64,000 bases of DNA from an uncultured Flavobacteriales bacterium (GTDB lineage Bacteria > Bacteroidota > Bacteroidia > Flavobacteriales_D > Sanyastnellaceae), in the NCBI GenBank assembly GCA_905478325.1, contig CAJQIB010000028.1, positions 1 through 64,000 on the forward strand. Reading direction: 5' to 3'. This document shows positions 44,319 to 52,540 of the stretch, piece by piece. Below the pieces are notes generated by a model. That model saw only the letters and a list, made by a program, of their open reading frames with translations, did not search any database and was not told the origin of the DNA. The number at the start of each line of letters is the position of its first letter. The first letter of the stretch is position 1. Both the position numbers and the translations under genes were made by a program.

Positions 44319-44328
44319 ACATTGTTTG

Positions 44329-44410
44329 TACCCGGAGTGGGAATCGAACCCACACTCCTTTCGGAACACGAGTTTGAGTCGTGCGCGTCTACCAGTTCCG
44401 CCATCCGGGC
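44329..44410 (-). tRNA. tRNA-Leu(CAA)
   Basis: The minus strand folds into a complete 82-nt class II tRNA. The acceptor stem is GCCCGGA paired with TCCGGGT (one G-T pair) and discriminator A, and the D arm is GCG..CGC. The anticodon stem is CACGA/TCGTG with loop CTCAAAC, giving anticodon CAA for UUG codons. A long variable arm with a TTCC/GGAG-type stem is typical of tRNA-Leu, and the T arm is GTGGG-TTCGATT-CCCAC. CCA is not encoded. Confidence 0.95.
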
Positions 44411-44504: not shown

Positions 44505-46268
44505 ATGAAAGGCATCCGAAACATTGCGATCATCGCACACGTTGACCACGGAAAAACTACGCTTGTAGACAACATCATTCATCAGTGTCAAGCCGTTGAT
44601 CCTCGAAAAGAAACCGGTCAACTCATTCTTGATAACAACGATCTCGAACGTGAACGCGGCATTACGATTCTCTCAAAAAATGTTTCCGCAAATTGGAAAG
44701 GAGTCAAAATTAACATCCTTGACACCCCTGGTCACGCCGATTTTGGAGGTGAGGTAGAGCGTGTTTTGAAAATGGCCGATGCTGTTTTGTTGGTTGTTGA
44801 TGCTTTCGAAGGGCCCATGCCACAAACTAGATTTGTGCTCGGAAAAGCCATCGAATTAGGGCTGAAGCCTATTCTCGTGGTAAACAAAGTCGACAAGGAG
44901 AATTGTACACCTGACATTGCACAAGAGCAAGTTTTTGACTTGATGTTCACCTTGGATGCCACCGAAGAGCAGTTGGACTTCCCTACGGTCTATGGTTCGG
45001 CCAAAATGGGCTGGATGGGTCCTAATTGGGAAGAACCTACCACCGATATAACGCATTTGCTGGATGTCATCCTCGAGCACGTGCCTGAGGCACCGTACCG
45101 CGAAGGAACTCCGTTGCTTCAAATCACGTCCCTTGATTACTCAAAGTACACCGGTCGTATTGCGATTGGGCGTTTGTTCCGGGGCGACCTTCATGCGAAC
45201 CAGGATTATGCGTTGTGCACCAAAGACGGGAATCGCAAGGCAAGGGCCAAGGAATTGTTTGTTTTTGAGGGTTTGGGCAAAGAAAAGGTGGACCACGTGC
45301 GAAGCGGAGATCTCTGTGCAATCACAGGAATGGATGGCTTCGAAATCGGCGACACCATCAGCGACCTCGAAAACCCTGAGGTCATGGAGCGCATCGCAGT
45401 TGATGAGCCCACCATGTCGTTGCTCTTCACGATCAACACATCCCCTTTCCTTGGACGTGACGGGAATTTGTTGACCAGCCGGCACATCCGCGAACGACTG
45501 GACGCAGAATTGCAGAAGAACTTAGCGCTTCGCGTCGAGCCGACGGACAGCGAAGACAAGTGGACGGTTTACGGACGTGGCATTCTGCATTTGTCCGTGC
45601 TGATCGAGACGATGCGTCGTGAAGGATATGAAATGCAAATTGGAAAGCCTCAAGTGCTGTTCAAAGAGGTTGACGGTGTCAAACACGAGCCGTTTGAGCA
45701 TCTCGTCATCGATGTACCCGACGCAGTAGCAAGCAAGGCAACGGAGCTGGTAATGAAGCGCAAGGGAATGCTCCAAGTCATGGAGGCCAAAGGCGCGTTG
45801 CAGCACATGGAATACCGAATTCCCTCCCGCGGGCTCATCGGTTTGCGGAACCAAGTCTTGACCGCTACATCTGGAGAAGCGGTGATGACCCACCGCTTTG
45901 ATGGCTATGAGCCGTTTGCTGGAGAACTCGCTTCGCGCTCCCTCGGCTCCTTGGTCAGTAAAGAAGCAGGTCAATCACGTGCCTTCGAAATTGACCGTCT
46001 ACAGGACCGCGGAACGTTCTTCATCGATTCAGGACAGGACATCTACGCAGGCCAAGTTATCGGCGAAAGTTCACGCGACAACGACATGGAATTGAACCTC
46101 GTTCGTGGAAAGCAGCTCAACAACATGCGATCGTCAGGTACCGACAAAAGCCTCAACATTGCTCCACCCCGAAAACTTTCTTTGGAAGAATACATGGAGT
46201 GGATTGGCGATGATGAGTACCTTGAGGTCACTCCTAAGGCGCTGAGGGTGAGAAAGGTGCGGGGGTGA
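44505..46268 (+). CDS. typA: Translational GTPase TypA/BipA
   Basis: TypA is a ribosome-binding GTPase related to EF-G with roles in stress and 50S assembly. The 587-residue protein has G1 [11 protein letters not shown]2 RGITI, G3 [14 protein letters not shown] and G4 NKVD. The TypA C-terminal domain has [24 protein letters not shown] and [24 protein letters not shown]-like segments. I chose the ATG at 44505, where [15 protein letters not shown] matches the family start; the longer open frame overlaps the tRNA. A GT2-type glycosyltransferase starts 15 nt after it. Confidence 0.97.
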
Positions 46269-46283
46269 ATTTTTAAGAAACGA

Positions 46284-47063
46284 ATGAGCCGATTTCAATT
46301 TGGATACATCATCGCAACAGTCGAATCAAGGATACTGAAAAACGACCTCCTTTGTCGACAAATCGACGCGATCAATGAGCCGATTGTAATTGTAAATCAG
46401 TTTACTGAAAAAGCCATTAAGGCAGATCAATTCAAGCCCAACGTTACTCTGGTTAATTCCAAAACGAAAGGGTTGTCTAAAAGCAGAAACATAGCGTTGA
46501 ATTTAATCGACGCCAGCCATGTCATGATTTGTGATGATGACATTCAACTGGTAGAGGAAAACCTTGAAGAATTAAGGGGAACCTTAGCGCAATCACCCTT
46601 GCATTCCGTTTATTTCACACAATTGCAAAAGAGTACCGGGCCGCTGTGGAGAGCTACTTATGAGAGCGATGCGTTCGTTTTGAAAGGCTTGTCCTTTAAA
46701 ACGAAGCGTCGCATCCAGAGAATCAACAGTATGGAACAAATCCTTGGGTTGGATATACTCAAACAGAACCGCATTCAATTCAATGAGAAATTCGGCGCTG
46801 GAACCCCGAATTATCCGCTTGGCGAGGAAACGTTATTATCGTTCGATGCTCTCCGAGCAGGAGGTACCATGCAGTATATACCCCTTGTCTCTCGAATTCA
46901 TCCTCCTTTTAGTTCTGGAATGAAGACTGACTGGAAAAGTCGTCGCTCCACATGGGCTGTTTACAGAAGAATCTTCTGGCCGTGGGGCACCCTCATGTTC
47001 ATCGCAGTTTCAATCAAACGATCTTTTTTGAGCAATTACTCGGATCACAACAGGGTCCTCTGA
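46284..47063 (+). CDS. Glycosyltransferase, family 2-like
   Basis: The 259-residue protein has a GT-A fold arrangement: an N-terminal beta-alpha nucleotide-sugar region, the motif TKGLSKSRNIALN (about 62-74), and the metal-binding acidic motif MICDDDIQLVE (about 82-92). The C-terminal third has aromatic and basic residues with a possible membrane-associated helix (FWPWGTLMFIAVSI). No signal peptide is seen. Donor and acceptor are unknown. Base composition is more AT-rich than typA next to it. Its 3' end overlaps the convergent methyltransferase by 54 bp. It starts 15 nt after typA with no promoter box of its own. Confidence 0.8.
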   Translation: MSRFQFGYIIATVESRILKNDLLCRQIDAINEPIVIVNQFTEKAIKADQFKPNVTLVNSKTKGLSKSRNIALNLIDASHVMICDDDIQLVEENLEELRGTLAQSPLHSVYFTQLQKSTGPLWRATYESDAFVLKGLSFKTKRRIQRINSMEQILGLDILKQNRIQFNEKFGAGTPNYPLGEETLLSFDALRAGGTMQYIPLVSRIHPPFSSGMKTDWKSRRSTWAVYRRIFWPWGTLMFIAVSIKRSFLSNYSDHNRVL

Positions 47064-47639
47064 CTTGTAAGGAGCTAAGCCCTTAGCTTGGATTTTGTAA
47101 ATAATTGAAAAGCCTGCGTTCTGAATCCTTTTCACGAAAGGTTCAAACTCCACAAACCTCCGATAATGTGACGTCATGAATTCGTTGGTGTTCAACGCCT
47201 CTCCTTGTCCATAAAGTTCATCAAGGACACTCCTTATCTCGATCAATAAGACTCCATTCGGTTTTAACGTTTTGAAGGCCCAATCGAGCGTGTCTTTTTC
47301 AAGTTTTTCACTCACGGAATGCAGGGTAAACCGCGAGTAAATTGAATCCACTTCTTTCCTCTTTCCTAATGCGGTGAAATCACCCGCTTCAAACGAAACG
47401 TTCACGTTTTTGAAAGCGCCCTTCAAGTGCTCAATTTCTGAATCGCATTGGTCGAAAGCGGTGACATTCAACCCCTTCTGAGCAAAAAACACACTGTCTC
47501 TTCCGTTTCCACATCCCAACTCATACATACTCATCCCTTTCTCTAAGAATGGAAGGGTAAAGCTTGCAAATGGTGATTCAACGGATGGGTTCGGATTGTT
47601 TTTGTAATAGCCTTCCCAGTAAGTTTTAGAATTCATCAT
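47010..47639 (-). CDS. Class I SAM-dependent methyltransferase
   Basis: The 209-residue protein has a Rossmann methyltransferase core with motif I MYELGCGNGRDSVFFAQKG (about 37-55), an acidic residue after strand 2 (TAFDQCD) and post-motif segments VDSIYSRFTLHSV and LKPNGVLLIEIRS. The N-terminus is YWEGYYKNNPNPSVESPFASF. It starts 2 nt after the stop of the LicD-like gene (a TTG overlapping that stop is another possible start). The context of two LicD-like genes and a glycosyltransferase suggests modification of a surface glycan or its phospho-substituent. The substrate is unknown. Confidence 0.8.
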   Translation of the reverse strand: MMNSKTYWEGYYKNNPNPSVESPFASFTLPFLEKGMSMYELGCGNGRDSVFFAQKGLNVTAFDQCDSEIEHLKGAFKNVNVSFEAGDFTALGKRKEVDSIYSRFTLHSVSEKLEKDTLDWAFKTLKPNGVLLIEIRSVLDELYGQGEALNTNEFMTSHYRRFVEFEPFVKRIQNAGFSIIYKIQAKGLAPYKSEDPVVIRVIAQKRSFD

Positions 47640-47641
47640 GC

Positions 47642-48340
47642 TCAATAATAGGCTGTATTACAGCTCCGTGAAATAATCTTTGAATTTAGCGCACTGGTCG
47701 GCGTGTGCCAATCCTTTCTTGGGATTAAATAATCCCCGTAAGTATCCGTAAGTCTTTGGGCAGGGTCCGCAGGAATATTCAAAACACTCCCTTGCCACGT
47801 GATCTTATCAAACGTTGTCACTCGAGTGAAGCACTCTCGAACTAAACGAGATCCCTCTGGGGAATTTGGAAACAAGTGGCAGTGCATCCCTCCTTCGACT
47901 TTTGAGAAGAAAAACAGGTCTAGAGTAACTCCGTTCAACTCATAACTCTCTTCAAGCCCATACCTTCCCTCGTCAACCTCTATCCGGTGTATTTTTCGAA
48001 ATCCATGCTTCACCAAAGCCTTTTCTATATGTGGGGTATAATCGTCCAACAAAACCCCGAAATCTAAATCTGTATCATGATCGATGAGTTTTCCGTCACG
48101 GATAATCCCGAGCAGCGTCCCAAATTCAATCCAATAAAAAAGACCGATTTCATCCAAAGCCTGCAAAGCAATTAGCATTGTTGACTTTCCTTTCATCTTG
48201 AAGTTTTTATTTAAGATCAAAAACTTCACTTTCAACAATAACGGGAGATACAGTGGTTTAATCACACGTTTTATACCCCAGCCATCGGACATCTTTTTAA
48301 GCCTTTCGATACCGGACAACAAATAATGTCTCGCCTTCAT
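47642..48340 (-). CDS. LicD/fukutin-family nucleotidyltransferase-like protein
   Basis: The 232-residue protein has the LicD-type core YWIEFGTLLGIIRDGKLIDHDTDLDFGV (about 68-95), in which the Gly-Thr-Leu-Leu-Gly loop and spaced aspartates form the metal and substrate site. Later it has LTDTYGDYLIPRKDWHTP, which also fits. Family members (LicD, fukutin, FKRP) transfer phosphocholine or polyol-phosphate groups to sugars. No membrane segment or signal is evident apart from a hydrophobic stretch near 30-45. It overlaps both neighbours by a few bases, so three genes form one operon with the other LicD-like gene. Confidence 0.82.
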   Translation of the reverse strand: MKARHYLLSGIERLKKMSDGWGIKRVIKPLYLPLLLKVKFLILNKNFKMKGKSTMLIALQALDEIGLFYWIEFGTLLGIIRDGKLIDHDTDLDFGVLLDDYTPHIEKALVKHGFRKIHRIEVDEGRYGLEESYELNGVTLDLFFFSKVEGGMHCHLFPNSPEGSRLVRECFTRVTTFDKITWQGSVLNIPADPAQRLTDTYGDYLIPRKDWHTPTSALNSKIISRSCNTAYY

Positions 48341-49095
48341 GATTGCTTCAATAATCGATCGCTTACAACAAAATCTCCATATGGTTTGATTTGAATGCTA
48401 TCAGGTGAAGAATGAGGTGACCCCCTATCTTCTGGTGGAGGAAGTTTCATGTAATCTCCATAAACCGTGCTCAATATTTCATCCCAGTTCTTCGGAACAC
48501 CGCATGTTAAACCTTCGAATTTGCGAGGTTCAACGGGTTCGAAATTTTGCCGAGACATGTAGACGCGTTTCGCTGAGTGGACGTTTAAAAAAGAAATTCG
48601 GTCGTCAGATGCGTCACGAAGTACGAAAATATCCACCGCTACCCCTCGTTTCCCATCTCTGCTGACAATTGAACTTCGGTCCATCACTTTAAAAAAATCA
48701 ACCCCCATTGGAACCAGTAACAAGTTAGAGGGCAGGTGGTTTGAGTTTTGAATAAAAAAATTAAAATCAGATTGAATCATGAACACATCGATATCATCAT
48801 CCCAGGGGATGAAACCATCATGGCGAATAGCTCCCAGCAACGTTCCAAATGCCAATGAAAATTCAAATCCATATCGAGACCCCATTTCATTTAAAACCCG
48901 CAAGATTCTTAAACCAATTCTTTGCACTTGCTTCTCCTTCGAAAGAAACAAAAAATCACCGCGATCATCCGGTACTTCGCGGTCAAGCGTATCTCCATCC
49001 CCTGATTGAGAACGTGCCAAACGAATCCTTCTGCGATATATCCGAGAATAGAATGGCCACTGTAGAGCTTGAATATGTTTTTCTTGTAGAAGCAC
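48337..49095 (-). CDS. LicD-family protein
   Basis: The 252-residue protein has the LicD core FEFSLAFGTLLGAIRHDGFIPWDDDIDVFM (about 76-105) with the expected acidic triad DDDID, and near the end STVYGDYMKLPPPEDR, as in other LicD proteins. The N-terminus is basic. It starts with GTG (49095); no ATG is nearby. A TATATTTA box, one base off consensus, ends 4 nt before the GTG. Its stop overlaps the next LicD-like gene start (ATGA). It probably transfers a phospho-substituent to a surface glycan; this is family-based inference. Confidence 0.85.
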   Translation of the reverse strand: MLLQEKHIQALQWPFYSRIYRRRIRLARSQSGDGDTLDREVPDDRGDFLFLSKEKQVQRIGLRILRVLNEMGSRYGFEFSLAFGTLLGAIRHDGFIPWDDDIDVFMIQSDFNFFIQNSNHLPSNLLLVPMGVDFFKVMDRSSIVSRDGKRGVAVDIFVLRDASDDRISFLNVHSAKRVYMSRQNFEPVEPRKFEGLTCGVPKNWDEILSTVYGDYMKLPPPEDRGSPHSSPDSIQIKPYGDFVVSDRLLKQS

Positions 49096-49140: not shown

Positions 49141-50601
49141 TTAAAGTGTTATCAGGAATGTCGATTTACTTTCAACACTAATCTTACCTCCGTGATACTC
49201 TTCAATGATTCGCTTGCACAGGGACAATCCAAGTCCCCAGCCTCTTGACTTTGTTGTATATCCCGGAGCAAAAACTTCCTTCCTCAGGTTTTTTGGAATG
49301 CCTTTTCCGCTGTCTGAAATTGTCACTTGAATGTTCTCAGGGGTTTGAACAACTCGCAACTCAATCCGACCTTTTCCATCCATGGCATCCACGGCATTGC
49401 GTATCAGGTTTTCGAGCACCCAACTGAAAAGAGGCGGACTCAAGTAAGTTCTTGCCTCAGGATGTTCCGTTTCAAACGTCATCTCCACATGTTTAGAGAC
49501 CCGAGGACGCATGTAGTTTACGGTGGACTGGATGGCTTCTGAAATGTTGTGTTCCTTCAAAATGGGTTTGGACCCGATCTTACTGAAGCGGTCGACTACG
49601 GTGTTGAGCCGCAAAATGTCCCGATTCATCTCCGAGAGATAGTCTTTCCGGACACCATCCTCCTCCAAAAGCCCCACCCACGCCATGAGAGAACTCAGCG
49701 GTGTGCCCAATTGATGCGCCGTCTCCTTGGCCATACCCACCCAAACTTGGTCTTGTTCAGCGCGTCTAAAGCTGCTAAAAATCAAATAGGCCACGAGCAG
49801 GAAAACAGCAATCAAAACCAGTTGAACCAACGGGTAATAACGTAATTGAGTCAACACAACCGAATCAGCAAAGTAGATGTAGTGTCTTCCGGCCTCAGGG
49901 AGGTCCACTGCAATCGGTTCGTTGCCATTAGACATGTCGCGAAGCAAACGTTGCAATCGGACAGGGTCTGCAACCGTAGCGCTGTCCACACGCTGATACC
50001 GCAAGACCGCCGTTCTCATGCTATCCGTCATGACAACCGGAACAGACGCGCTGTTGATCACCGTTTCCGAAATAAACGAATTGATGAGGTCCTGCATGAC
50101 CTCTTTGAGCTCACTAAAACGAACACTTTCATTCCAGTAAACGGTATGACCAACGTCTTCAAACACGATCGGCTCATTGTGAGCAAGCATCGCAAACTTT
50201 AGAGAGTCGCGGTCCGTTGTTTGTGGCACATTTAAATCATACAATAGCCGATCATTCTCGTCGTAGATCAAAACAGGGATGGTGCGATTGGACCACACAT
50301 AATCTGTAACGAACGTCAAGTCCATGCCCCGTGGTGGATCGTTGATCAAGCGGTATGCATCGGCAAGTCGATCTGCTTTTTGGCGTTCTTCACCACTCAA
50401 CTCTTTGAATAATTGCTGCGTATACCGCACCAACTCCGACCGCTTCACGATGGCCTCGGACCACACACGCACTTTGTTTTGTTCCTCCTCACGGATGCGG
50501 CGCGCCATGTCATTGGAGTACCACAACGTGGCGACAACAATGACCGATGCTACAGCCAATAAAAGCCGCTTCCAGCGTTGTTTATTGGAGTAAACGTTCA
50601 T
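49141..50601 (-). CDS. Sensor histidine kinase
   Basis: The 486-residue protein has an N-terminal membrane helix (about 11-28), a periplasmic sensor region (about 30-265), a second helix (YYPLVQLVLIAVFLLVAYLIF) and a cytoplasmic kinase. The phospho-acceptor His is in MAKETAHQLGTPLSSLMAWVGLLEE, the N box is ENLIRNAVDAM, and ATP-binding boxes are ISDSGKGIP and GWGLGLSLCKRIIEEYHGGK. No response regulator lies next to it. The start ATG overlaps the upstream PorP/SprF stop by one base (TAATG), which fixes the start. It is the last gene of a four-gene operon. Confidence 0.92.
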   Translation of the reverse strand: MNVYSNKQRWKRLLLAVASVIVVATLWYSNDMARRIREEEQNKVRVWSEAIVKRSELVRYTQQLFKELSGEERQKADRLADAYRLINDPPRGMDLTFVTDYVWSNRTIPVLIYDENDRLLYDLNVPQTTDRDSLKFAMLAHNEPIVFEDVGHTVYWNESVRFSELKEVMQDLINSFISETVINSASVPVVMTDSMRTAVLRYQRVDSATVADPVRLQRLLRDMSNGNEPIAVDLPEAGRHYIYFADSVVLTQLRYYPLVQLVLIAVFLLVAYLIFSSFRRAEQDQVWVGMAKETAHQLGTPLSSLMAWVGLLEEDGVRKDYLSEMNRDILRLNTVVDRFSKIGSKPILKEHNISEAIQSTVNYMRPRVSKHVEMTFETEHPEARTYLSPPLFSWVLENLIRNAVDAMDGKGRIELRVVQTPENIQVTISDSGKGIPKNLRKEVFAPGYTTKSRGWGLGLSLCKRIIEEYHGGKISVESKSTFLITL

Positions 50602-51548
50602 TAATTGTAGGCAGGACAAGGCATGGTTCTGCCGCTCGGCTTGCCCGAACAACCGTTGATGCCAATGACGATTTCATGGGTCCGCGGGCCTGCACCACTC
50701 AGTGGTGAAACGTTCATCTCGTAAGCATATCCAATCGAGAGGTATTCCAAGACTTTAATTTGAGCAGCGACAATAAATGCACTTTGAGTGCGGTAACCGA
50801 TGCCAACTCCTGCGACGTCGTTGTAACGCGCCATAGCCATCAGCTCCGCGGAAATCGGAACGCCCTTAGCCATGCGTACTTGTCCAGAGGGAAGAAACAT
50901 CCACTGTCCGTCGAGCTCAACCTCTGAACCTGCCATCATCACCACGTGCCGTCTCAGCTTTCCGTACTGGCTGATCTTCTCCATGGACGGTTGGGTCACA
51001 TTCTGGATGGTCAAGCCTACATACTTTGTGCGGTCGTAAAACCAAACGCCGGCGTCCAGCATGGGAGCGATGAATTGGCTTGAACCCATGATGGCAGGGT
51101 CGTTGGTGCCTTGTACTTCGGGCATCTCCAGTAAACTCAAGTTAAGTCGATGTTGGAAAAACCCTGCACTGAAGCCCATTGCCAAACGCGCGCCTGTGGA
51201 TAGCCTCAGGTTGTACGCGTAAGCAAAATTGACCGAGGTATACCCCCAAGCTCCCGCTTCGTCCGATTCAACCCGCCCGCCAAACCCATGAAAGTCTTGT
51301 CCTTGAGCCGTCATTTGTCCATGCAAATTGGCAAACGATGTCTGCGGAGCGCCCTCAATTCCAGACCATTGGTTTCGATAGCCCATGTGCAAATCCATAC
51401 AGCCCAAAACGCCCGCCATGGCCGGGTGGTCCTGGAACGGATTCATCATGGCTGTAGTCCGAATCGGAAATTGCTGGGATTGGCCTGACGTGGCGAAGAA
51501 CAAAAACACCAGCAGTCCCGTCAAAAAAGGTGTGTGGAATTGTTTCAT
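50601..51548 (-). CDS. PorP/SprF-family type IX secretion outer-membrane protein
   Basis: PorP/SprF proteins are outer-membrane barrels that work with the type IX machinery, often paired with a type B cargo protein. The 315-residue sequence has a signal peptide (TPFLTGLLVFLFFATSGQSQ), the typical opening with FQDHPAMAGVLGCMDLHMGYRNQWSGIEGAPQTSFANLHG, and the closing EYLSIGYAYEMNVSPLSG...THEIVIGIN. It overlaps the preceding type B protein gene by four bases, the usual genetic partnership. It ends at the histidine kinase start. Confidence 0.92.
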   Translation of the reverse strand: MKQFHTPFLTGLLVFLFFATSGQSQQFPIRTTAMMNPFQDHPAMAGVLGCMDLHMGYRNQWSGIEGAPQTSFANLHGQMTAQGQDFHGFGGRVESDEAGAWGYTSVNFAYAYNLRLSTGARLAMGFSAGFFQHRLNLSLLEMPEVQGTNDPAIMGSSQFIAPMLDAGVWFYDRTKYVGLTIQNVTQPSMEKISQYGKLRRHVVMMAGSEVELDGQWMFLPSGQVRMAKGVPISAELMAMARYNDVAGVGIGYRTQSAFIVAAQIKVLEYLSIGYAYEMNVSPLSGAGPRTHEIVIGINGCSGKPSGRTMPCPAYN

Positions 51549-52540
51549 CGGATAACACTGATAAAGCCGGTGATGGTTTGAAAATCAACAAGCAATGGAT
51601 CGTTCAAATCAATCGCATAGTAATACGTCCCCTCCGGAACATCCGTTCCGCCGCGTCTTCCATCCCAAGCCTGGGTATACCCAATACTGCGATGAACCAA
51701 TTGACCCCACCGGTCAAAGATGCGCACGTCCGCTAAATCATACAGAAGCAGACCTTCAATCGTCCAAACGTCATTGATGTAGTCGCCGTTGGGCGTAAAA
51801 CTCGTTGGGATGCCTAAGGGGTTTCCGACAGTAATGGTAACCTCATCGGTGTACTGACACCCTCCAAAAAAACCTGATACCGAGTACGTAGTGGTGATGC
51901 TAGGCGACGCAATCACTTCGGGTCCCGTTGCGGGCGAAATACCGTATTCAGGAAACCACGTATATCCCAGGTCCTCATTTCCCCCTAAGACCGTCAAGGT
52001 AACGGCTTGTCCTGGAGCGATATTGGATGTGCAGCAGGCGTTGATCGAAACGGCCGGCCCCGACAGAATTAAGGACACATTGCACGGTGTTGTCGACTGG
52101 TCGTGCGCCGTGCCGATTAAAATCAAGTACGTGGTATTGGGCAACAAGCCATCGGTTTGCAAAGCGAACCCTCCTGCCGTTTCGGCACACGGAGAGACCA
52201 TTTCATACGCGGCGACGTTGCACAAATCCTGCGGATCTGGTTTGACCACAACGCACTCGATCACATCATCAATTCCATCCGTTTGACACGTGACGCCTGT
52301 AATGTCCAAAGTGGCAGAACCGGTATTGACAAAATCTCCGTTGGACATGAATTCAACCACCGTTACAAAGGGCGCGTTCAGACAATCGATCTCCAAACTT
52401 TGACTAAAGTTCAATGTGATCGCTTCTGGAATTTCACCGCAGATCGGAACCGGATTGCTGCAGTCTTGCGCCTGCAGGGCGCCCGTCAAAGCAAGCAGGA
52501 CCAAACCTAAATAGTTCTTCATGGCAATTAAACGCTTCAT
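51545..52540 (-). CDS. T9SS type B (gliding-motility-associated) secreted protein
   Basis: The 331-residue protein has an N-terminal signal (either from 52540 or from Met7, MKNYLGLVLLALTGALQAQ), a cysteine-rich beta-domain (about 25-170), an Ig-like module (about 170-240, with VTLTVLGG and TYSVSGFFGGCQYTDEVTITV) and a clear type B sorting domain at the end (PTSFTPNGDYINDVWTIEGL...VRIFDRWGQLVH...GTYYYAID). It is coupled by ATGA to the biotin-carrier gene before it and to PorP/SprF after it. The ATG at 52540 is kept because of that coupling. Confidence 0.88.
   Translation of the reverse strand: MKRLIAMKNYLGLVLLALTGALQAQDCSNPVPICGEIPEAITLNFSQSLEIDCLNAPFVTVVEFMSNGDFVNTGSATLDITGVTCQTDGIDDVIECVVVKPDPQDLCNVAAYEMVSPCAETAGGFALQTDGLLPNTTYLILIGTAHDQSTTPCNVSLILSGPAVSINACCTSNIAPGQAVTLTVLGGNEDLGYTWFPEYGISPATGPEVIASPSITTTYSVSGFFGGCQYTDEVTITVGNPLGIPTSFTPNGDYINDVWTIEGLLLYDLADVRIFDRWGQLVHRSIGYTQAWDGRRGGTDVPEGTYYYAIDLNDPLLVDFQTITGFISVIR

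Follow-up and report, generated by a model that had tools for sequence, protein, structure and literature searches.

We analyzed a 64,000-nucleotide stretch of DNA from an uncultured Flavobacteriales bacterium of the Sanyastnellaceae (contig CAJQIB010000028.1 of assembly GCA_905478325.1, positions 1 to 64,000 of the forward strand), referred to below as the window. Four genes at 46284-49095, encoding a GT2-type glycosyltransferase (GT2), a class I S-adenosylmethionine (SAM) methyltransferase (MT) and two LicD-type proteins (LicD2 and LicD1), were confirmed as a real island. Comparison with other genomes revealed what could not be seen in the window itself, namely that relatives share a variable slot between typA and a sensor histidine kinase gene (HK), and that the island is one of its alleles. 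We consider it likely that this slot is exchangeable and serves surface-glycan decoration. In the following, LicD1, LicD2 and MT are together called the triad, and the genome of the window is G000. The slot and its borders in the window are made up as follows.

44328..44410, minus strand: tRNA-Leu(CAA), probably the border of the older slot on the left (tRNA detection)
44505..46268, plus strand: typA/bipA GTPase, bordering the slot on the left in the genus of the window (start inferred from the G020 orthologue)
46284..47063, plus strand: GT2-type glycosyltransferase, typA-side part of the cassette, same direction as typA (open reading frame and Pfam)
47010..47645, minus strand: class I SAM methyltransferase (MT) of the triad (open reading frame, Pfam, fold and homologues)
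47642..48340, minus strand: LicD2, LicD/FKRP-family protein (Pfam core, orthologue alignment, fold)
48337..49095, minus strand: LicD1, LicD-family protein (Pfam and orthologue alignment)
49141..50652, minus strand: sensor histidine kinase (HK), right-hand border of the slot (last ~34 nt without match to genome G008)

The initial annotation had described a three-gene minus-strand operon and a convergent, overlapping glycosyltransferase gene, and the coordinates and overlaps agree with this layout. The MT/LicD2 and LicD2/LicD1 junctions each overlap by 4 nt, and GT2 and MT converge with an overlap of 54 nt, which is not kept in G020 and G021, where the two genes do not overlap. The start of LicD1 lies 45 nt after the stop codon of HK, in the same direction, and that of GT2 15 nt after the stop codon of typA. 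The open reading frames (ORFs) of the island are not chance ORFs, since their proteins are conserved in other genomes; GT2 homologues were found at the same place in G020, G021, G015 and G019. For the left-border gene, the listed ORF starts at 44322, and the start used here (44505) was taken from the G020 orthologue. Its name, typA/bipA, is the presumptive one given in the initial annotation. On its far side from the slot, HK adjoins PorP/SprF and CHU_C genes in an operon-like row (50601-52540); both are type IX secretion features.

A variable slot between typA and the kinase gene

Among the 22 genomes of the genus (G000-G021), 13 were readable from typA to HK on one contig, including G021, of which only the ends of both flanks are present, and G006, with only the end of typA. 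Together with G029, G048 and G033, the slot was thus readable in 16 genomes. The remaining genomes of the genus were left out, as G011, G013 and G017 end early, and the HK match is weak or cut in G002-G005, G014 and G016. The interval between typA and HK ranged from 49 to 4648 bp over the 16 genomes (tblastn end points). Neighbouring gaps were nearly constant, with two outliers, 1037 bp between the type IX secretion system (T9SS) gene and typA in G007, and 497 bp between purF and the T9SS gene in G029; the PorP-CHU gap was measured in 2 genomes only. The 13 same-genus genomes displayed 9 layouts, if G007 is counted apart from G009/G006. The contents of the slot are listed below, several cargo genes being assigned by homology to a Pfam-scanned gene.

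G000, G020 and G021: LicD triad and GT2
G008: methyltransferase-like (below cut-off), GT4, GTGRSGT protein (no Pfam match)
G012: G008 allele minus ~1.5 kb
G010: pyruvyltransferase-like (below cut-off), sulfotransferase, GT4-type
G009 and G006: GT2, GTGRSGT protein, methyltransferase-like gene
G007: GT2, GTGRSGT protein
G018: methyltransferase, two GT2
G015: GT2, pyruvyltransferase
G019: two GT2, FkbM-type methyltransferase, GT11, one protein without Pfam match
G001: sulfotransferase-like (just below cut-off), two GT4-type, UDP-GlcNAc 2-epimerase
G029: GT2, sulfotransferase
G048: GT2-like
G033: empty

The GTGRSGT protein is, to judge from its motif, presumably sulfotransferase-like.

The initial annotation had also noted the AT-richness of the island and suggested its acquisition. 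The G+C content is 42.6% in the island and 50.2% in the remaining window, and in a scan of the whole window (2.8-kb segments, 50-base steps) the segments lowest in G+C overlapped the island (42.5%), the lowest elsewhere reaching 47.5%. In one set of related loci, the G+C content of the interval was below that of the rest of the locus in 16 of 16 stretches, including one whose value is lowered by Ns (L137) and two with non-glycan cargo (L141, L143). The acquisition claim is supported further by the distribution of LicD1, matched in 5 of 150 genomes (its own included), and by the site itself: the island is not conserved in all relatives, and in relatives other genes lie between typA and the kinase gene.

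LicD2 matches were found in 12 of 399 genomes of the order. Five are near-full-length orthologues; the other seven belong to another family and are weaker (26-49% identity over 37-190 residues). A search for the gene set in other genomes recovered the triad together with GT2 at the typA-HK site in G020 and G021, that is, with G000, in 3 of the 13 same-genus genomes. The triad is also present in two genomes of another genus, G038 and G054, with no typA or HK within the 19 kb fetched; in G054 a UDP-GlcNAc 2-epimerase gene adjoins it on one side, and GT2, GT4-type and flippase-like genes, the last below the cut-off, on the other. A glycerol-3-phosphate dehydrogenase gene (L014:15206-16201) follows the glycan genes at this locus and may be housekeeping or may hint at a glycerol-phosphate donor. 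A search for viral carriers of LicD2 gave 31 pattern matches, of which none is a relative. A literature search, covering titles and abstracts of openly licensed PMC papers, returned no account of the gene combination or of the site.

These distributions bear on another possible history, in which a larger ancestral glycan locus was inherited vertically and pruned differently in each lineage. The G012 allele, a shortened version of that in G008, would fit such losses, as would the empty sites in G033 and in genus g10, and the single gene pair kept in 9 of 9 genomes of genus g14. Against it, same-genus genomes carry unrelated genes and not subsets of one set, and LicD2 identity does not track organism distance: it is 55% to the same-genus G020 and 55% to the other-genus G038/G054, while HK identity is 81% and 50%, respectively. 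The trees of the flanks, described below, also conflict with one another. We regard vertical inheritance with loss as improbable.

Proposed exchange and expression of the cassette

G008 is the nearest genome found. DNA homology between G000 and G008 breaks off 4 nt beyond the stop codon of typA, at 46272, and returns 34 nt into the HK gene, at 49175; the flanks are 93.8% and 96.1% identical, and the cargo between them is unrelated. G008 and G012 have a common allele with 95-96% DNA identity. G000 and G008 group to the exclusion of G012 in the HK tree (99/92) and with purF (88/96), and with typA at only 59/41. Because G008 and G012 share an allele while G000 groups with G008, the LicD allele of G000 is probably a newcomer that replaced the common allele.

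Comparisons of the flanking genes yielded conflicting histories. At fourfold sites G018 is 85% identical to G000 in typA, but much less so in the other genes compared (HK 34%, T9SS gene 31%, PorP 54%, purF 65%); as to a rise of synonymous change in the border genes, the picture for these two genomes is one-sided. The HK tree unites G018 with G009/G019 (100/99), and purF supports a group of G000/G008/G012/G018/G020 at 100/100. PorP rejects G018 with G019 (p 0.001), and typA rejects G020 with G000/G008/G012/G018 (p 3.6e-6 with 14 genomes, p 0.005 with the ten shared genomes), p-values that are not clean, since the tested groups were named after the fourfold-site comparison. The allele of G021 is a mosaic: its HK end is 98.5% identical to G011 over 130 bp, its typA and GT2 stretch is 91% identical to G019 over 959 bp, and the LicD triad lies between the two. 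Conflicting flank histories and the mosaic allele of G021 point to homologous recombination. A control stretch of 19.5 kb elsewhere in G000 was collinear with G008, which covers 12 of its 15 ORFs, and with G018 and G020, each covering all 15.

The orientation of the cargo genes was surveyed by script. Of 25 cargo-bearing loci, 22 were scored as having the HK-side gene in the direction of HK, and G010, G001 and G048 as having it convergent; in the last of these, the script picked an antisense ORF, while the GT2-like ORF at this locus runs the same way as HK. In 9 of 16 loci of genera g1 and g9, the HK-side gene starts at a position between -4 and +2 nt relative to the stop codon of HK. The typA-side gene was scored as co-directional with typA in 11 of 14 cases. 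In G020 and G009 the script skipped the first gene, whose earliest start is inside typA and which is in fact co-directional, and the count for G048 again refers to the antisense ORF. Promoter-like and terminator-like sites in the island were about as many as in shuffles. This arrangement suggests that the cargo may be expressed from the flanking operons.

In an exchangeable slot of this kind, incoming DNA would enter by homologous recombination in typA and in the kinase operon, replacing all or half of the cassette, which could then be read from the flanking operons. The swap would change the surface glycan, plausibly for escape from phages or grazers.

Several observations weigh against this scheme. 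With respect to recombination, the HK tree on the ten shared genomes is without conflict for G018 (expected clade 73/82), the conflict of G018 depends on G009/G019, for which purF was absent from the comparison, and there is no substitution peak in the border genes between G000 and G008 (typA 86, HK 86, the other four genes 81-89). The same-genus genomes are multi-contig drafts, in which single joins could be misassembled. With respect to a variable glycan slot, three g3 genomes have cargo without a raised AT content, and the slot is invariant in g14, where all nine fetched genomes keep homologues of one GTGRSGT protein and one GT2 beside HK. The interval between HK and a tRNA-Leu(CAA) in g2, g5, g12, g15 and g16 holds kelch, FG-GAP or Pfam-less proteins (part scanned). 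Finally, the screens of genomes described below identified no donor pathway or acceptor glycan.

Predicted functions and donor pathways

Both LicD proteins match PF04991 above its curated cut-off (22.6 bits), LicD1 at 94.5 bits and LicD2 at 28.3 bits, the latter match being confined to the core. They are paralogues with 27% identity, and both contain the GTLLG motif, the DxDxD motif and a downstream aspartate. In LicD1, the motif WDDDID (residues 98-103) and Asp155 are invariant in 5 of 5 orthologues, and in LicD2 the three aspartates of HDTDLD (residues 88-93) and Asp141 are likewise invariant in 5 of 5. The capsule enzyme Cps7C of the LicD/FKRP family (PMC11666461) resembles them in that the three aspartates of its LicD motif are followed, at a distance of roughly 50 residues, by another one (D247 and D293 are 46 residues apart). 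The aspartates of the family are regarded as catalytic or metal-binding residues.

The FKRP likeness extends to the predicted fold. With the LicD2 model (predicted local distance difference test score, pLDDT, 65), FKRP accounted for 9 of 9 Foldseek hits at E<=0.001 and is the top fold match. A second comparison returned FKRP at Z 9.8 (root-mean-square deviation 3.1, 131 aligned), level with ANT(2'') at Z 10.2 and below LnuA at Z 12.1; folds missing from the lists of this second comparison, made for LicD2 and MT, were not counted as excluded. The modelled fold class, a nucleotidyltransferase fold as in FKRP, is clear for LicD2, the one of the two LicD proteins that the assignment covers. The operon and the LicD/FKRP relationship proposed in the initial annotation are supported, the latter by the PF04991 matches and the fold match of LicD2 to FKRP; the aspartates are present in both cores. 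Compared with Cps7C and the LicD/FKRP family, the window differs in having two paralogues and a methyltransferase in one operon.

The remaining two proteins were assigned more broadly. GT2 matches PF00535 marginally (24.1 bits, cut-off 23.3), and MT matches PF13847 at 48.2 bits (cut-off 27). According to its sequence and its model (pLDDT 69), MT is a generic class I SAM enzyme. MT (47010-47645) also matches the PADLOC model mad2 (45.6 bits, 1.1e-12) over the methyltransferase part only, which we took as a generic SAM domain.

The initial annotation had proposed that the LicD proteins and an N-methyltransferase might decorate the glycan with phosphocholine or phosphoethanolamine. In a profile search of PDB sequences, phosphoethanolamine-type methyltransferases made up 7 of 7 MT matches at E<=1e-6, which speaks for such a role. 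These alignments stop, however, at or before profile position 135 of 206, covering the SAM-binding half and ending before the substrate half, and in the comparison of modelled folds phosphoethanolamine methyltransferases tie with TehB-like and many other enzymes. Phosphoethanolamine N-methylation is thus not specifically supported as the role of MT. The NCBIfam cholinephosphotransferase model Mf1 also hits the two LicD proteins, with scores (72.9 and 37.0 bits) that stay below its cut-off of 225 bits. As to the donor, choline kinase PF01633 was found in 0 of 12 genomes, and for this reason phosphocholine transfer by the Lic route is unlikely in G000. The APH-family kinase PF01636 is over the cut-off in the other-genus carriers G038 and G054 (frames of 679 and 747 aa), in favor of the proposal, and also in the non-carrier G007; among the same-genus carriers, it is absent from G000 and G020, and G021 has one match below the cut-off. 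Carriers have no surplus of cytidylyltransferase-type genes over non-carriers: IspD is present once per genome in 11 of 12 genomes, PF01467 four times in 9 of 10 genomes and five times in G018, and PF12804 five or six times per genome. On balance we judge a phosphocholine or phosphoethanolamine decoration to be unlikely.

Other donors were considered as well. No phosphoenolpyruvate (PEP) mutase was over the cut-off in the five triad carriers (best match in G000 28.7 bits, cut-off 31.5), and matches just over the cut-off occurred in 4 of 12 genomes, all non-carriers. The ORF list and Pfam revealed no LicC-type cytidylyltransferase among the cassette genes of the window. Phosphocholine, phosphonate and polyol donors were set aside, as the family screens (PF01633, PF13714, PF01128, PF01467, PF12804, PF01636) yielded no gene specific to same-genus carriers. 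Two of the four PF01467 genes of G000 were inspected and, from their signatures, are presumably CoaD-like and RfaE2-type; one PF12804 gene of G000 is, on the same grounds, presumably KdsB. G000 has three flippase-family matches, one of them below the cut-off, and two of the stretches are collinear with G008 where its contigs reach; a backbone polysaccharide locus was not identified among the genes of the one such stretch inspected (L253). The G011 allele contains a cytidylyltransferase (PF02348) and a NeuB gene (L134:4908-6668), and, to judge from it, some slot alleles seem to bring their own nucleotide-sugar pathway.

Family membership suggests a division of labor. GT2 would add a sugar, LicD1 and LicD2 would each take a phospho-alcohol or a comparable group from a CDP-activated donor and attach it to a hydroxyl of the glycan, and MT may cap the glycan or the added group. 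With this allele, a surface glycan would most likely receive one sugar, a methyl group and one or two groups linked through phosphate.

The probable tRNA-Leu(CAA) border and related loci

In the window, typA is separated from the T9SS-type gene by tRNA-Leu(CAA), and the distance from this tRNA to the cargo is about 1.9 kb. ARAGORN identified this tRNA in 20 of 21 loci of one set and in 11 of 37 HK loci of another, which also held two stretches that are not HK loci (L014, L015). HK is near tRNA-Leu(CAA) in 11 of the 20 genera examined within the family (g1, g2, g3, g5, g9, g10 and g12-g16; g17 was outside this survey). No such tRNA was found near HK in the fetched stretches, some of them short, of g4, g6-g8, g11 and g18-g21, nor in those of four genomes from other families. 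The interval between HK and the tRNA is 24, 45 and 95 bp in three g10 genomes, contains typA alone in g13, and typA plus cargo in g1 and g9. In three g3 genomes, each interval contains a T9SS lectin, with glycosyltransferase and sulfotransferase genes in those scanned; the large HK-adjacent proteins (L219:10235-12922, L227:5130-7862, L224:3294-5930) carry both a legume-type lectin domain and, at the C-terminus, a type IX secretion signal. The older slot was probably the interval between HK and tRNA-Leu(CAA), into which typA was inserted later.

At the slot edge in G034, a resolvase/recombinase-family gene (L144:3478-5064) runs with its 3' end into tRNA-Leu(CAA), possibly as part of a tRNA-inserted element. 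Apparent recombinase remnants in G069, G272 and G289 were rejected; they overlap tRNA-Leu and were taken as the tRNA region read in frame.

An integrase-driven island anchored at tRNA-Leu(CAA) would account for the tRNA counts given above, for the G034 gene and for the close spacing of HK and tRNA in g10; the element would bring the glycan genes, with typA and cargo as successive arrivals. Yet the borders of the cargo are at the ends of typA and HK and not at the tRNA, from which typA separates the cargo. The ORF list and Pfam show no integrase among the island genes of the window, and the direct repeats found (14-18 nt, 82-89% identity) do not bracket the island. This origin also seems unlikely to us.

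Homologous exchange at a decoration slot may be elaborated into a more specific but doubtful proposal, which has to be taken as a whole. The site would be a two-sided, promoterless "decoration socket", whose typA side and kinase side take up modules of modifying enzymes independently. Each module would start where the flanking gene ends, at its stop codon and often overlapping it by 4 nt, and be read from a host operon that ends with the sensor kinase. The socket would have arisen between HK and tRNA-Leu(CAA), first captured typA, and now serve as the serotype switch of the genus. Its paired LicD and methyltransferase allele would use a donor that does not come from the known Lic, Tar or phosphonate routes.

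Three published systems resemble the slot. Replacement flexible genomic islands of aquatic prokaryotes, which are described as recombining homologously at their borders and for which a link to phages has been suggested (Lopez-Perez et al. 2014, PMC4033161), likewise show different genes of the same broad function at the same place, with signs of border recombination. The present slot differs in its size (mostly 1-5 kb), in its borders (typA and a sensor kinase), in that no flippase or polymerase model matched among the scanned cargo genes, and in lacking, between G000 and G008, the substitution peak of the published signature. The O-chain biosynthetic clusters of Pelagibacterales (PMC11898729) share the high diversity of a surface-glycan locus among close relatives; they are described as whole O-chain biosynthesis clusters, whereas the present alleles seem to consist of genes for decoration. 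In phosphonoglycan neighbourhoods that contain PntC and LicD-like genes (PMC6697681), LicD-like phosphotransferases also occur near glycosyltransferases, but here no PEP mutase over the cut-off accompanies the triad in its carriers, and the cassette has no cytidylyltransferase. The kind of locus, a replacement glycan island, is already known, and the slot looks like a new and unusually small example of it.

As the locus is small and well bounded, strain-level surface variation in an uncultured genus of Bacteroidota could be typed from metagenomes, and slot types could be set against phage susceptibility. The triad of LicD1, LicD2 and MT may bring about a phosphate-linked glycan decoration that has not been described before.

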